Source: Candidatus Woesearchaeota archaeon
GTDB taxonomy: Archaea; Nanobdellota; Nanobdellia; Woesearchaeales; GW2011-AR4
DNA: 42,624 nucleotides
Assembly: GCA_016784105.1 (NCBI GenBank)
Contig: JADHVG010000003.1
Span: 1 to 42,624 of the forward strand
Direction of reading: 5' to 3'
Part shown: in pieces, positions 19,655 through 27,222 of the stretch
How the letters are laid out: each line of letters begins with the position of its first letter
Numbering within the stretch: the first letter of the stretch is position 1
The notes under the pieces: generated by a model
Seen by the model: the letters and a program-made list of their open reading frames with translations, nothing else
Databases searched by the model: none
Told to the model about the DNA's origin: nothing
Program-made: the position numbers and the translations under genes

Positions 19655-20494
19655 ATGGCATCTTTCCTTCAGAACATATACGGGATTGTATTGGATAAGG
19701 TTAACTCTTATCTCCCTAAAATAGCAACTACTTTAGTTGTAATCATTGTAGGTTATATTTGTATTAAGTTGATTATCAAGGCTATTGAGAAGTTCTTCCA
19801 TAAATTTGAATTTGAACGTGGTGTGGAAACTTTCATAGAGAATGGGGTTAAGGTTATTCTTTGGTTGATTTTGATTATCATAGTTCTAGCAAATCTGGGA
19901 GTTAATGTGTCTGGGTTGGTAGCTGGATTAGGAATCATGGGTTTTGTTGTTGGTTTTGCACTAAAGGACACTTTGGGTAATCTTGCTTCCGGAGTCTTCA
20001 TACTTTTCTATAAACCTTTCAAGGTGCATGATTGGGTTGAAGTGGGTGGCATAACTGGAGAAGTTGTCAAGGTAGGGATTGCTGCTTGTGAACTGAAAGC
20101 TGGTAATCAAAACAAGATAACCATTCCGAATAACAAGATTTGGGGAGATGTTATAGTAAATTTTTCTGGTAATAAGATAAGAAAAAATTATGATATGATG
20201 GTAGGTATAAGTTATAGTTCAAACATGGACCAAGCGATAAAGATCATTAAAGACATCCTGAAAAAAGACGATCGTGTTCTAAAAGAACCTGAACCTCAGG
20301 TTGTTGTGCATAATTTGGGAGATAGTTCCGTAAATATAACTGTAAGACCTACAACCAGCAAGGATGATTATTGGTCAGTTCATTTTGATACAATCAAGAA
20401 GATCAAGGAAGAATTCGATAAGAATAAGATAGAAATTCCGTTCCCACAACAAGATGTCCATATTAGGGAAATGCCTAAAGAAAAGAACAAATAA
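19655..20494 (+). CDS. MscS-type mechanosensitive channel
   Basis: GVNVSGLVAGLGIMGFVVGFALKDTLGNLASGVFILFYKPFKVHDWVEVGGITGEV. Confidence 0.92.
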   Translation: MASFLQNIYGIVLDKVNSYLPKIATTLVVIIVGYICIKLIIKAIEKFFHKFEFERGVETFIENGVKVILWLILIIIVLANLGVNVSGLVAGLGIMGFVVGFALKDTLGNLASGVFILFYKPFKVHDWVEVGGITGEVVKVGIAACELKAGNQNKITIPNNKIWGDVIVNFSGNKIRKNYDMMVGISYSSNMDQAIKIIKDILKKDDRVLKEPEPQVVVHNLGDSSVNITVRPTTSKDDYWSVHFDTIKKIKEEFDKNKIEIPFPQQDVHIREMPKEKNK

Positions 20495-21028: not shown

Positions 21029-23305
21029 ATGAAAGAAAAAGTTCTAAAGCTAAAGGTTGCGGAAGCGATTCAAGATGATGTTAATAAGGGGATAGTTCGT
21101 GTAGATAATTCTTTTCTTAATGAAATTGGGGTAAGGCCTGGAGACATAATTGAGTTAGAAGGTGACCGTAAAACTGTTGCTATTGCAGATCGTGCTTATC
21201 CTGGAGATATTGGTCTGAACATTGTGCGTATGGATGGTATCATAAGGAAAAATTCCAAAACGGGGATTGGAGAGATGGTTCAAGTCAAGAAAGCAGATGT
21301 CAAGGAAGCAAAAAAAGTCACGATTGCCCCTGCAAGAAAAGGGATGGTAATTCGTGCATCCCCAGAAATATTTAAACAAGGCCTTTTGGGAAGAGCTTTG
21401 GGAAAAGGAGACATAGTTTCACTTGGAGGTTCAAAGCGAAGACGTTCTACAATGTCAGAATCTCCGTTTTTTGAGGACGTTTTTAATATTCTTGATGAGA
21501 GTATGATGGGTTTTGGTTTTTCAGATATTAAGTTCATAGTTGTGGATACTAATCCTAAGCAGAGTGTGATAATATCGGAACATACTGAAATTATTTTCAA
21601 CCCAGAAGCGGTTGAGGTCAAAGAAGAGATGGTTCCTGAAGTCTCTTATGAGGATATTGGTGGATTAGAAGATGAAGTTAAGAAAGTTAGGGAGATGGTT
21701 GAGCTTCCATTAAAACATCCTGAAATCTTTGAACGTTTAGGTATAGAAGCTCCGAAAGGTGTTTTACTGCACGGTCCTCCTGGCACTGGAAAGACGTTGT
21801 TGGCAAAGGCAGTTGCCAATGAAACAAATTCTCATTTTATTCTTATTAATGGTCCTGAAATTATGAGCAAGTATTATGGTCAGTCAGAAGAAAACTTGAG
21901 GAAAAAATTTGAGGATGCAGAGAAAAATGCTCCTTCCATAATTTTTATAGATGAGATTGATGCTATCGCATCGAAGCGTGAAGAGACTAAAGGAGAAGTT
22001 GAGAGAAGAGTTGTAGCTCAAATGCTTGCTTTGATGGATGGTTTGCAAAGCAGAGGCAAAGTAGTTGTTATTGCTGCAACAAATGTGCCTAATATCCTGG
22101 ATCCTGCTCTTAGAAGACCTGGACGTTTTGATAGGGAAATAGAAATTGGTGTTCCTGGAAAACCAGGCAGATTAAATATTTTAAAGATTCATACAAGAAA
22201 CATGCCTCTGGCCAAAAACGTAAATTTGAAGGAACTCGCAGACATAACTCATGGTTTTGTTGGAGCGGATCTTGCTTCACTTGCAAAGGAAGCTGCTATG
22301 ATTATTTTAAGAAGAATTCTTCCTGAATTAAGGCTGGAGGAAGATCAACCAATTCCTAAGGAAGTTTTGGAAAAATTAAGATTGACTCAAAAAGATTTCA
22401 AGGATGCACTTAAGGTAGTTAGACCTTCTGCCTTAAGAGAGGTTTTAGTTGAAATCCCTAATGTGAAGTGGGAGCATGTTGGTGGATTAGATGATATGAA
22501 ACAGGAGCTTAAAGAAGCTGTTGAGTGGCCCTTAAATCATCCGGAATCTTTTGCAAGATTAGGAGTAAAACCTCCAAAAGGCATATTGATGTATGGTGCT
22601 CCTGGCACTGGAAAGACTTTGCTGGCAAAAGCTGTCGCAAATGAATCACAAGCGAATTTTATTCTTGTTAAAGGACCAGAATTATTATCTAAATGGGTTG
22701 GTGAATCTGAGAAAGCTGTTAGGGAAGTTTTCAAGAAAGCTAGGCAAGTAAGTCCTACAATAATTTTCTTTGATGAGATTGATTCTTTGGCTCCTAGACG
22801 GAGCATGGGTTCAGAGAATAATGTAGCTGAACGTGTTGTAAATCAATTATTAACAGAAATTGATGGTCTTGAGGAAATGCATGATGTTGTTATTATCGCT
22901 GCAACTAACAGGCCAGATATTGTTGATACTGCTTTGTTAAGACCTGGAAGATTTGATAGGATTATTCTTACTCCTCCTCCTGATGAGTTTTCAAGAGTTG
23001 AAATTTTTAAGGTTCATACTAAGGGGATGCCCCTTAAATCAGTAAAGTTGGAAGAGCTTGCAAAAAAAACCGAAGGTTATGCTGGAGCGGACATAGAAGG
23101 TGTGTGCAGAGAAGCTGCTATATTTGCATTAAGAGAGAACATGGATGCAAAACATATTGGTATGAAACATTTTGAAAAAGCTTTGGAGAAAGTACCTCCT
23201 TCTGTAACTAAGGAAATTGAACAAGCCTATGAATCTTTAAAGAACCAGTTTAGCTCTGCTCGCGCAAAACAGATGCAGGAAGAAAGACCAGTTTATTTAG
23301 GTTGA
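21029..23305 (+). CDS. Cdc48/VCP family AAA+ ATPase
   Basis: Two AAA modules: [17 protein letters not shown] and [17 protein letters not shown] with [11 protein letters not shown] and [11 protein letters not shown] Walker B; N-terminal Cdc48 double-psi barrel region. Confidence 0.97.
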
Positions 23306-23307
23306 TA

Positions 23308-24441
23308 ATGCACACTAAAGAAAAAATTTTCTATTTTTTTGAGGAATCCAAAACAACATACGCAACTTCTTTCAGGATCTTCATAATCTTGCTTATTTTG
23401 ATTTCTTCAGGAAGTGCGGTTATAAGTTTGTTCACACCAACTTATTTAGAACCTTATCATGAAGTTATAATAAAAGCAGAGTTTTTTGTTCTGGTAATCT
23501 TTACTCTTGAATATGTTCTTCGTTTTGCAACTTCTCCAAACAAGGTTAAGTTTGCTATAGATAAATTTAATTTGATAGACTTATTAGCCATAGTTCCTTT
23601 TTATCTTGGTTTCAATAATCTTGCTTACCTAAGGGCTTTTAGGATTTTGAGACTATTAAGGTTGTTGAAGTACATCAAGATATATGGGGTATTTCAGTTT
23701 AGGGAGACAATTTTTGAAAAGATAACTCCATTGGTTTTATTATTAGTCTTATTTAAGTCGGTAATCATCTATCTAGAAAAGATTGGGACCTGGTTTGCGA
23801 TTGATAATGTTTCGGTATTGTTTACAATAATAGGTTTCGCGTTAGGAGTTATCTTGTCTCAGAAAATTGGAACAACTTATGGGAAGTATCTGGATTTGGA
23901 GCGGGCAATGTTTTCTATGCACGGAAAAGTTTCTTCTTTGGTTTTTAATTTGAATGCATTAAAAAATAAAGCAGGAACAAAAGCAATGCATAGTTGGATT
24001 GAAGATTTTTTGAAGATATATCGTGGACCGGACAAAGATTGTGTAAAGTTAATGGTTAAATCAAATGAAAGGTTGTATAATAAAGTTTTGGAACTTGGAA
24101 ATCATCCTTTGATTCCTCATCATCGTCTTGCTGCTTTGTTGAGTGGAATTTTTGAAGATTCCACTTTCATAATAGGGAGAAAATCTTCCTACACTCCTTC
24201 CGCTTATGATAAGCTTTTGCAACAGGTATTGTTGCTTTATCTAGCTTTGATAGCGATATTCCTCCCTGGAGCAAATGGTATGATCTCTGTTGCCATTGCT
24301 ACTTACTTACTATATGGGATGTATTACGTTACTCAGGATTTTGATCTTGCGGTGGGTGATAAAAAAATTAGTTTGATAAAGTTAGATCCCAGCAGGTTAC
24401 AATATTTCTTTGACGAGTTAGACAAGGACTTAAAGATATAA
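23308..24441 (+). CDS. Voltage-sensor-like domain fused to bestrophin-like C-terminal domain
   Basis: S2-S4-like LVIFTLEYVLRF, FNLIDLLAIVPFYL, YLRAFRILRLLRLLKYIK; then IIGFALGVILSQKIGTTYGKYLDLERA and SAYDKLLQQVLLLYLALIAIFLPG...GMYYVTQDFD resembling bestrophins; no TVGYG-type filter. Start ATG 23308 preferred to TTG 23302. Confidence 0.68.
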   Translation: MHTKEKIFYFFEESKTTYATSFRIFIILLILISSGSAVISLFTPTYLEPYHEVIIKAEFFVLVIFTLEYVLRFATSPNKVKFAIDKFNLIDLLAIVPFYLGFNNLAYLRAFRILRLLRLLKYIKIYGVFQFRETIFEKITPLVLLLVLFKSVIIYLEKIGTWFAIDNVSVLFTIIGFALGVILSQKIGTTYGKYLDLERAMFSMHGKVSSLVFNLNALKNKAGTKAMHSWIEDFLKIYRGPDKDCVKLMVKSNERLYNKVLELGNHPLIPHHRLAALLSGIFEDSTFIIGRKSSYTPSAYDKLLQQVLLLYLALIAIFLPGANGMISVAIATYLLYGMYYVTQDFDLAVGDKKISLIKLDPSRLQYFFDELDKDLKI

Positions 24442-24485
24442 TTTCTTCCCAAAATATTTAAATAACTTAGTTCTTATTTTTCTGC

Positions 24486-25781
24486 ATGACCTCAAAACCA
24501 GGAGACAGAGTTAAGGTAACAACTAAAGATTCAGTTAAAGAGGGAATCTTGATGCCTAATCAGGAAACTAGTTCTATTGTCATAAAGCTGGATAGCGGTT
24601 ATAATGTTGGGATAGATAACAAAAAAATAGAAGGGATTAAGATAATTGAAAAGTATAAATCTGTAAAACAGACAACAAAAAAAGAATCAAAAAAAGATTC
24701 TAAAAAACCAACAATTTCTATTCTTCATACTGGGGGCACCATAGCTTCGAAAGTTGATTATCGGACTGGGGGGGTTGTATCAAAGTTTTCTCCTGAAGAG
24801 ATTCTTGAAATGTTTCCAGAACTAAAAGGCATTGCTAACATAGAAAGCAGGCTTATATCTAACATGTTTTCTGAAGATATGAGATTTAAACATTATTCTC
24901 TGATCTGCAAAGCCATAGAAGAAGAAGTAAAGGAAAATGTGGATGGGATAATCTTGACACATGGAACTGATACTATGGGGTATAGTGCTGCTGCCTTGAG
25001 TTTTGCTCTTGAAAACATAAACATTCCTTTGATTATTGTTGGTTCTCAGAGAAGTTCGGATAGGGGAAGTACAGATGCAGCTTCTAATTTGATTGCTGCC
25101 GCAAAATTCATAACTGGTTCTGCTTTTGCTGGTGTTGCAGTTTGCATGCACGAAAATACTAATGACTCTGATTGTTTGATAATGCCTGCGACTAAGACTC
25201 GTAAGATTCATACAAGCAGGAGAGATGCGTTCAAAGTTGTCAATGATAGACCAATTGCAAGAGTTAATTATGAATCTGGAAAAATTAATTTTTTGAACAA
25301 TTATGCAAAGAAATCAAAATCTGATAAGCTTTTGATAAAAGATAATTTCGAGGAGAAAGTTGGTTTTTTAAAATGCCATCCGAACATGTTTCCAGAACAG
25401 TTTGAGTTCTTTAAAAGTTACAAAGGTCTGATTATCGAAGGTACGGGTCTTGGTCAGGCTCCAGTAGGGAATCCTAATGAGCTTACTAAGATACATGAAA
25501 AGAATTTGAAAGCAATAGAAAATGTTGCAAAAAGTGGGTGTGTTGTTGTGATGAGTTCTCAATGTATCTTTGGAAGAGTGCATATGCACGTTTATTCAGG
25601 TGCAATAGATTTACAAAAAGTAGGTGTTATTTCAGGAGAAGATATGCTTCCTGAAACTGCTTTCATAAAGCTTGCATGGCTTCTTGGAAATTTCAAGAAA
25701 GATGAAGTTAAAGATCTTGTGACTAAGAATCTTAGGGGAGAAATTAATGAAAGACTATTGGAAGATGAATTTTTAGGTTGA
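24486..25781 (+). CDS. gatD: Glutamyl-tRNA(Gln) amidotransferase subunit D
   Basis: Asparaginase-like TISILHTGGTIASKVDYRTGGV, ILTHGTDTMGYSAAAL, N-terminal GatD domain. Confidence 0.95.
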   Translation: MTSKPGDRVKVTTKDSVKEGILMPNQETSSIVIKLDSGYNVGIDNKKIEGIKIIEKYKSVKQTTKKESKKDSKKPTISILHTGGTIASKVDYRTGGVVSKFSPEEILEMFPELKGIANIESRLISNMFSEDMRFKHYSLICKAIEEEVKENVDGIILTHGTDTMGYSAAALSFALENINIPLIIVGSQRSSDRGSTDAASNLIAAAKFITGSAFAGVAVCMHENTNDSDCLIMPATKTRKIHTSRRDAFKVVNDRPIARVNYESGKINFLNNYAKKSKSDKLLIKDNFEEKVGFLKCHPNMFPEQFEFFKSYKGLIIEGTGLGQAPVGNPNELTKIHEKNLKAIENVAKSGCVVVMSSQCIFGRVHMHVYSGAIDLQKVGVISGEDMLPETAFIKLAWLLGNFKKDEVKDLVTKNLRGEINERLLEDEFLG

Positions 25782-25788
25782 TTCTAAA

Positions 25789-27222
25789 ATGGACATAGAT
25801 TATAAGAAATTAGGTTTCAAATGTGGTCTTGAGATACATCAGCAATTAGAAGGAAAAAAACTTTTTTGTTCTTGCCCCACCATAAATTCTAGTAGGGAAT
25901 CTGATGTGAAGTTTGAGAGAAAGCTTAGAGCTGTTGCAGGAGAACAAGGACAAGTTGATGTAGCTGCATCCCACGAAATGCAAAAAAGTAGGAAGTTTGT
26001 TTATGAGGCCAATTCAGAAGATACGTGTTTGGTTGAATATGATGAAGAACCTCCTAAGCAATTGAATAGGGCGGCATTAGAAACAGCTTTGAAAATTTCT
26101 CTGTTATTGAATGCAACTCCTGTTGACGAGATACAATTCATGCGCAAGACTGTTGTAGATGGAAGTAATGTTTCTGGTTTCCAGAGAACAGCGCTGATAG
26201 CTTTGGATGGAAATATTGAAACTTCTCTTGGGACTGTCAGAATCTCTACTATCTGTTTAGAAGAAGAAGCAGCACAAAAGCTGGAGAGCAAAAAAGATTA
26301 TGTGAAATATAAGTTGGATCGGTTGGGAATTCCACTTATAGAAATTGCAACAGACGTAGACATAAAAAATGCAGAGCACGCAAAAGAAGCAGCTTCCAAG
26401 ATAGGTATGATTTTGAGGAGTGTGGATAATGTTAAGCGAGGCTTAGGAACTATAAGGCAAGACGTTAATGTTTCGATAGAGCAAGGTGAAAGAGTAGAGA
26501 TAAAAGGTTTTCAAGATCTAAAAAGTATTCCTAAAGTTATAGATTATGAGGTAAACAGACAAATTTTCGAAACAGAAAATGGAAAAAAGCTTGAAAAGGA
26601 AGTTAGAAAAGCAGAACCTAACTTTACTACTTCTTTCTTGAGACCTATGCCCGGTTCCGCTAGATTGTATCCGGAAACTGATGTCTCTCCAGTAGGTATT
26701 GAAAAACATTATTTGGATGAACTCAAAAAAAATCTTCCAAGATTGCTTTCTGAAAAAATAGGGGAGATAGAGAAAAAACATAAGTTGAAGAATGATTTAG
26801 CTAGGGAGTTAGTGGATAATGAACATTTTGAAAAGTTGATAAAGAAATTTTCTAAGCTAGAACCTTCTTTGATTGCAAACACATTAATCAGCATCCCTAA
26901 GGAGATTAAGTCCAGATTAAAATTGGATCCTTCTTCTTTGGTTTATGATGATTTTCATGAAGTTCTTGATTATTTGCATAAAGGCAAGGTTGCTAAAGAT
27001 GTAGTTATAGATTTGTTAGTCAAGAAAATAAAAAAAGAGAAGATAATTTTGGAAAAGTATGTTCCTATATCTGACAAGGACCTGGAAGCAGATATCAAGG
27101 ATATTCTGGAAAAGAGAAAAGGCCTTAACATTGGAGCCTATATGGGAATTTTAATGGGTAAATATAAGGGGAGTATTGAAGGCAAAAAGCTCATGCAAAT
27201 CTTAAAAAAACTACTTAAATAG
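25789..27222 (+). CDS. gatE: Glutamyl-tRNA(Gln) amidotransferase subunit E, apparently lacking the AspRS-like insertion
   Basis: FKCGLEIHQQLEGKKLFCSCPT...RQDVNVSIEQGERVEIKGFQDLKSIP...LRPMPGSARLYPETDVSP; C-terminal YqeY-like region. 477 aa. Confidence 0.9.
   Translation: MDIDYKKLGFKCGLEIHQQLEGKKLFCSCPTINSSRESDVKFERKLRAVAGEQGQVDVAASHEMQKSRKFVYEANSEDTCLVEYDEEPPKQLNRAALETALKISLLLNATPVDEIQFMRKTVVDGSNVSGFQRTALIALDGNIETSLGTVRISTICLEEEAAQKLESKKDYVKYKLDRLGIPLIEIATDVDIKNAEHAKEAASKIGMILRSVDNVKRGLGTIRQDVNVSIEQGERVEIKGFQDLKSIPKVIDYEVNRQIFETENGKKLEKEVRKAEPNFTTSFLRPMPGSARLYPETDVSPVGIEKHYLDELKKNLPRLLSEKIGEIEKKHKLKNDLARELVDNEHFEKLIKKFSKLEPSLIANTLISIPKEIKSRLKLDPSSLVYDDFHEVLDYLHKGKVAKDVVIDLLVKKIKKEKIILEKYVPISDKDLEADIKDILEKRKGLNIGAYMGILMGKYKGSIEGKKLMQILKKLLK

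Follow-up and report, generated by a model that had tools for sequence, protein, structure and literature searches.

In a single gene of a Candidatus Woesearchaeota archaeon, a voltage-sensor domain (VSD) is joined to a bestrophin. The gene (VSD-bestrophin, VB; 23308..24441, forward strand) lies in a stretch of 42,624 nucleotides (contig JADHVG010000003.1, assembly GCA_016784105.1), here called the window, and encodes a complete S1-S4 voltage sensor and a complete bestrophin domain, an architecture (Ion_trans plus Bestrophin_2) found again in eight homologues. VB is one uninterrupted open reading frame of 377 amino acids, from the ATG at 23308 to the stop at 24441, starting 2 nt past the stop codon of a CDC48 gene and ending 44 nt ahead of gatD. 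A preliminary description of this DNA had placed the gene correctly and had counted 379 residues, two too many. Both modules are known; their combination, and its organization with an asparaginase in an operon, are new as far as could be found. No published description of a VSD-bestrophin protein was found in open-access full text, most subscription journals being outside this scope, and the preliminary description had likewise known of no described example.

At the level of protein families, Ion_trans (PF00520) matches VB residues 21-149 (E 5e-14, above the curated Pfam cut-off). The match covers about the first half of the profile only, and Ion_trans is the only confident Pfam domain of the N-terminal part, with no rhodopsin domain there. 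Bestrophin_2 (PF25539) matches residues 128-221 without gaps, spanning TM1-TM2 only, with an E-value of 9.8e-8 for the whole protein and of 3.5e-8 for the C-terminal half alone, and with a score of 32-34 bits against a curated cut-off of 27. Both families were recovered in all seven VB members tested (the window protein and the homologues L041-L046), PF25539 with E-values below 1. When the two halves were compared separately as profiles (hhalign), the N-terminal half matched 20 K+ channels with 99.8% probability (E 2e-28) and, as a control, 14 bestrophins with 0.1%. For the C-terminal halves the probabilities were 90.4% against the 14 bestrophins (E 1.4e-6, with 209 aligned columns that begin at TM1 and extend beyond TM4) and 0.6% against the 20 K+ channels. 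No TVGYG-type K+ filter and no S5-P-S6 segment occur in the VB translation. The fusion of a voltage sensor with a bestrophin, as it had been claimed in the preliminary description, is therefore borne out by profiles, by the structure models and by conservation across nine proteins; the absence of an S5-P-S6 pore and filter also holds, given the translation and the 0.6% match of the C-terminal half to K+ channels. The bestrophin family proposed at that stage, PF01062, has itself no Pfam match in VB, and the bestrophin assignment stands through Bestrophin_2.

The voltage-sensor domain (residues 1-124; 23308..23679, forward strand) matches Ion_trans with an E-value of 1.5e-15 when taken alone, retrieves Kv channels of the PDB by sequence search, and has its helices in the structure model of the window protein: S1 at about residues 17-42, S2 at 56-74, S3 at 86-101 and S4 at 105-122. 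The S4 charges R109, R112, R115, R118, K121 and K124 (23632..23679) stand at every third position; R109 and R115 are invariant in the nine VB proteins, the remaining charge positions are nearly always basic, and a stretch of 24 residues includes 7-9 basic ones in each of the nine. The charge-transfer motif of S2, F65-T-L-E68 (23500..23511), is invariant in all nine together with D91 in S3, and we take F65, E68 and D91 to correspond to F233, E236 and D259 of Kv1.2. The S1-S4 bundle, the S4 repeats and the charge-transfer residues are common to VB and to Kv channels, prokaryotic ones included (PF00520), whereas the S5-P-S6 segment and selectivity filter of these tetrameric channels have no counterpart in VB, which is expected to form a pentamer. 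All nine proteins retain S4 and the charge-transfer centre intact, which strongly suggests that VB is modulated by voltage.

S4 is followed by a short linker (residues 125-133; 23680..23706), delimited by alignment, which occupies the position of the S4-S5 linker of Kv channels and has low confidence in the model of the window protein. The bestrophin domain (residues 134-377; 23707..24438, forward strand), supported by Bestrophin_2, by the hhalign match across TM1-TM4 and by Foldseek matches to KpBest, consists of TM1 (135-158), TM2 (166-190), cytosolic helices, TM3 (299-318) and TM4 (321-346). The 14 bacterial bestrophins used for comparison include L040, which is either KpBest or nearly identical to it and has I62, I66 and F70 at the published positions of KpBest. 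The kinship is remote, with about 18% identity. In the pore helix TM2 (23809..23877) the alignment to L040 is ungapped and sets the VB neck residues F177, V181 and Q185 against I62, I66 and F70. Throughout the family the neck is F177, V/I181 and Q185 (E in L057), that is, F-I/V-Q in VB versus I-I-F in KpBest and I-F-F in eukaryotic bestrophins; the third position is polar, so the neck is not hydrophobic at all three residues. Without the third hydrophobic residue of known bestrophins, the pore could function differently. From the bacterial bestrophins (KpBest, E. coli YneE; PF25539), with which it shares the four transmembrane helices in order, the gapless TM2 and a fold match that covers KpBest almost completely, VB differs in bearing a voltage sensor where they have a short N-terminal segment, in its shorter cytosolic part and in forming a separate clade. 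Conservation among the nine VB proteins is highest in TM2 (mean 0.87), followed by TM4 and TM3, and lowest in the cytosolic part (0.47). Together with the invariant sensor residues, and as far as sequences can tell, this is what would be expected if pore and sensor are both functional.

AlphaFold models of the window VB and of L041 were built from alignments holding VB proteins only, with no ordinary bestrophin, and are of moderate confidence (pLDDT 65 and pTM 0.47 for the window protein; pLDDT 67 and pTM 0.41 for L041). In a Foldseek search with the window model, the best 36 PDB matches are KpBest entries, aligned over about 270 columns with target-normalised TM scores of mostly 0.62-0.71, and the L041 model matches both KpBest and Kv channels. 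A sequence search of the PDB with the C-terminal half gave no match, so the fold match rests on these models. The joint between sensor and pore is among the worst parts of both, and its geometry is not given by them.

The eight full-length homologues come from Patescibacteria, all carry the same fusion and share 36-41% identity with the window VB over the whole length. Six of them (L041-L046), on contigs labelled Kuenenbacteria, Patescibacteria, Daviesbacteria, Peribacteraceae, Kaiserbacteria and Kerfeldbacteria, were retrieved by aligning the window VB with real bestrophins bearing shuffled decoy N-termini, the patterns being taken from the bestrophin half only, and two more (L055 and L057) were obtained from genome searches. 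VB is rare and patchy: it was found in one of 380 genomes of the phylum spread, that one being the centre genome (G397), and in the other sets of relatives there are one or two cases per more than 100 genomes. Among 371 genomes of the archaeal phylum of the window, PF25539 was not found beyond the window itself, with positive controls, and a search of the same genomes with the whole VB gave matches to the voltage-sensor part only. Moreover, no VB relative was found by single-protein pattern scans of genome contigs and viral contigs, by tblastn of plasmids and phages, or by scanning viral contigs with the extended VB alignment. In trees, the VB sensors are united in a single clade to the exclusion of K+ channels (support 97/92), as are the VB bestrophin domains to the exclusion of other bestrophins (100/100); with both halves forming single clades, the fusion probably arose once. 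The simplest history of the archaeal VB would be a transfer from Patescibacteria to the archaeon, in view of the lack of any other PF25539 in the 371 genomes and of the CDC48-gatD gene order of relatives without VB. L057 is the nearest to the window VB in the trees; both have long branches and, according to a warning of the program, their join may be false.

In seven of the eight bacterial loci (L041-L046 and L057) the gene next after VB encodes a type-I L-asparaginase; its start either overlaps the end of VB by ATGA or lies behind it at a distance of a few to about 35 nt. The enzymes were identified by TIGR00519 in four loci and by sequence motifs in all seven, and they keep the GGT and HGTDT motifs (HGTNT in one). 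Since any gene of the type-I asparaginase kind occurs in only 18 of 192 Patescibacteria, this adjacency goes far beyond chance, keeping in mind that the seven loci may descend from one operon and are not seven independent events. The asparaginases linked to VB group together in the tree (89/87), which suggests that the pair moves as a unit. The exception is L055, where VB lies between metE and metF with no asparaginase beside it, and where a search of the genome with a GatD query gave no asparaginase-family gene. A fragment of a duplicated metE 3' end is present downstream of this VB (L055 2652-2870) and, together with the metE/metF position without asparaginase, suggests a recent insertion. 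Upstream of VB, three loci have genes for membrane-like proteins with no confident Pfam or NCBIfam match (L042 4094-4906, L044 3593-4582 and L045 3893-4858). Another pair of enzyme and bestrophin was seen on a Caballeronia plasmid (L034, 1-1455), where only 1 nt separates a carbonic anhydrase gene from the gene of an ordinary bestrophin downstream of it.

In the archaeon, VB is located on the same strand directly downstream of a gene for a CDC48 AAA ATPase (21029..23305; NCBIfam TIGR01243) and directly upstream of gatD (24486..25781; NF003217/TIGR02153 and TIGR00519), which encodes the asparaginase-family subunit of the Glu-tRNA(Gln) amidotransferase and is followed by gatE (25789..27222; NF003107). 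gatD is the only asparaginase-family match in the archaeon's own genome (83% complete), and its product groups with archaeal GatDs and is a native archaeal GatD. Ahead of it, a TATA-like box, TTTAAATA (24457..24464, forward strand), is shared at the same distance with most of the family relatives examined, so that gatD probably has its own promoter. A joint arrival of the archaeal VB and gatD was considered and rejected, given the archaeal character of GatD and the presence of the CDC48-gatD order and of the promoter box in family relatives that lack VB. The position of VB beside an asparaginase-family gene is striking, and it may be due to chance, since a different insertion occupies the same CDC48/gatD junction in L069 (G003, about 742-1501), with open reading frames that resemble toxin-antitoxin genes. 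A few genes upstream of VB, the window also holds a gene for an MscS-type mechanosensitive channel (19655-20494).

From these data, VB is likely to be a pentameric bestrophin channel gated by its attached S4 sensors and functionally tied to an amidohydrolase. In each subunit, about ten residues would connect the end of S4, in a Kv-type S1-S4, to the N-terminus of the bestrophin; the end of S4 and the N-terminus of bestrophins are both cytosolic, so the topology of VB fits. As the connection stands in place of the Kv S4-S5 linker, movement of S4 could open the neck: a shift with the membrane potential would pull TM1/TM2, and the neck in TM2 (F177, V/I181, Q185) would open or close. Bestrophins are C5 pentamers (PMC8496536), and five VB subunits would thus make a bestrophin pore with the five sensors around it.

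As to the ions, KpBest is a Na+ channel with the neck I62/I66/F70, eukaryotic bestrophins with I/F/F are Cl- channels, these residues are linked to selectivity, and the substitution I66F shifts KpBest towards Cl- (PMC8496536). In VB the middle residue is I or V, as in the Na+-conducting KpBest, and not F, and the third is polar (Q, in L057 E) and gives anions no advantage. Both residues argue against the label of anion channel given in the preliminary description, and we find this label unsupported. The ions of VB would most likely be cationic, or the pore weakly selective, rather than strictly anionic, bearing in mind that selectivity is not safely deducible from three neck residues. A voltage-gated anion channel that passes Cl-, HCO3- or aspartate, perhaps exporting the aspartate of the partner asparaginase, is hence a doubtful alternative, which has two precedents to recommend it. 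Bestrophin-2 (Best2) is reportedly paired with glutamine synthetase, for glutamate release (Owji 2022, cited in PMC12236511 and PMC13219296), and the partner of VB is likewise an enzyme of amide metabolism. Furthermore, those eukaryotic bestrophins that have been studied well conduct anions (PMC8496536). Returning to the gated pentamer with cationic or weak selectivity, in bacteria VB would work with the asparaginase of the same apparent operon, which converts Asn into Asp- and NH4+, and the most plausible role would be to let out a deamidation product (NH4+ or aspartate) or to balance charge as the membrane potential changes. More tentatively, at somewhat less than even chances, VB may represent a class of voltage-gated channels not described before: its pentameric bestrophin pore, which is not of the P-loop type, would be driven by S4 and would form one unit with an asparaginase, the potential controlling the traffic of deamidation products.

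Two further readings dispense with a bestrophin pore. An improbable one is that of a voltage-sensing signalling protein, whose sensor would move a bestrophin scaffold that only docks or regulates the asparaginase. VSP phosphatases are voltage-sensing proteins without a pore, a VSD is fused to bPH_2 in a DPANN relative, and the neck of VB is unusual, all of which count for this reading; the concentration of conservation in TM2, with its minimum in the cytosolic part, is the opposite of what a docking scaffold would show. Less probable still is permeation through the VSD itself, as a proton or cation leak of the Hv1 type, with the bestrophin half merely holding the oligomer. A VSD can indeed conduct alone, as in Hv1, whereas in VB conservation peaks at the bestrophin neck and not in S1-S4, and the sensors found to be related to that of VB are those of ordinary K+ channels. 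There is, finally, the possibility of an artefact, to which the fragmentation of the source genome (71 contigs) lends some colour. The eight full-length homologues elsewhere, in unrelated genomes and with the same joint, rule out the assembly fusion that the preliminary description had named beforehand, as well as a chance in-frame fusion; with the frame open and the flanks syntenic, it is negligibly probable that a frameshift joined two genes or that the gene is degenerate.

To our knowledge, all described S1-S4 proteins have a tetrameric P-loop pore, consist of the VSD only (Hv1) or control an enzyme (VSP). VSP phosphatases and Hv1 resemble VB in having a VSD without a K+-channel pore, and differ from it in that this domain is attached to a phosphatase or stands alone, with no bestrophin. 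The Best2-glutamine synthetase and VB-asparaginase pairs both combine a bestrophin with an enzyme of amide metabolism, the former being an animal pair concerned with amide synthesis and without a VSD, the latter concerned with amide hydrolysis and with a VSD. VCCN1, a voltage-dependent Cl- channel of plant thylakoids, is a bestrophin with an added N-terminal charged helix (PMC9076864); this helix lies outside the membrane, S1-S4 are lacking and the voltage dependence is weak, whereas VB has S1-S4. A precedent for a membrane sensor fused to a bestrophin is found in the bestrhodopsins, algal fusions of rhodopsin and bestrophin (Rozenberg 2022, cited in PMC11453091), which are eukaryotic and have a light-sensing rhodopsin and no VSD, in contrast to the VSD of VB.

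A VSD joined to a bestrophin would test what is minimally needed for the coupling of S4 to a pore, in a five-fold and not four-fold geometry. If the proposed reading is true, it would show that the voltage sensor can be carried from one protein to another as a module, having become linked in evolution with metabolism as well as with an unrelated pore. The pairing with asparaginase would point naturally to candidate substrates and, next to Best2, would be the second example of a bestrophin with an enzyme of amide metabolism. VB would also be a rare lead on the electrical and ion physiology of DPANN archaea and Patescibacteria, few of which have been cultured.

Other proteins with a VSD and without a K+ filter were also observed. 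In a DPANN relative, L011 combines Ion_trans with bPH_2 (PF03703, 1.6e-9), and L010, from a DPANN relative as well, looks like it by eye. In Patescibacteria, L063-L066 have C-terminal parts of a pattern similar among them, that of L065 without a Pfam name. These six proteins are possibly further voltage-sensing fusions.
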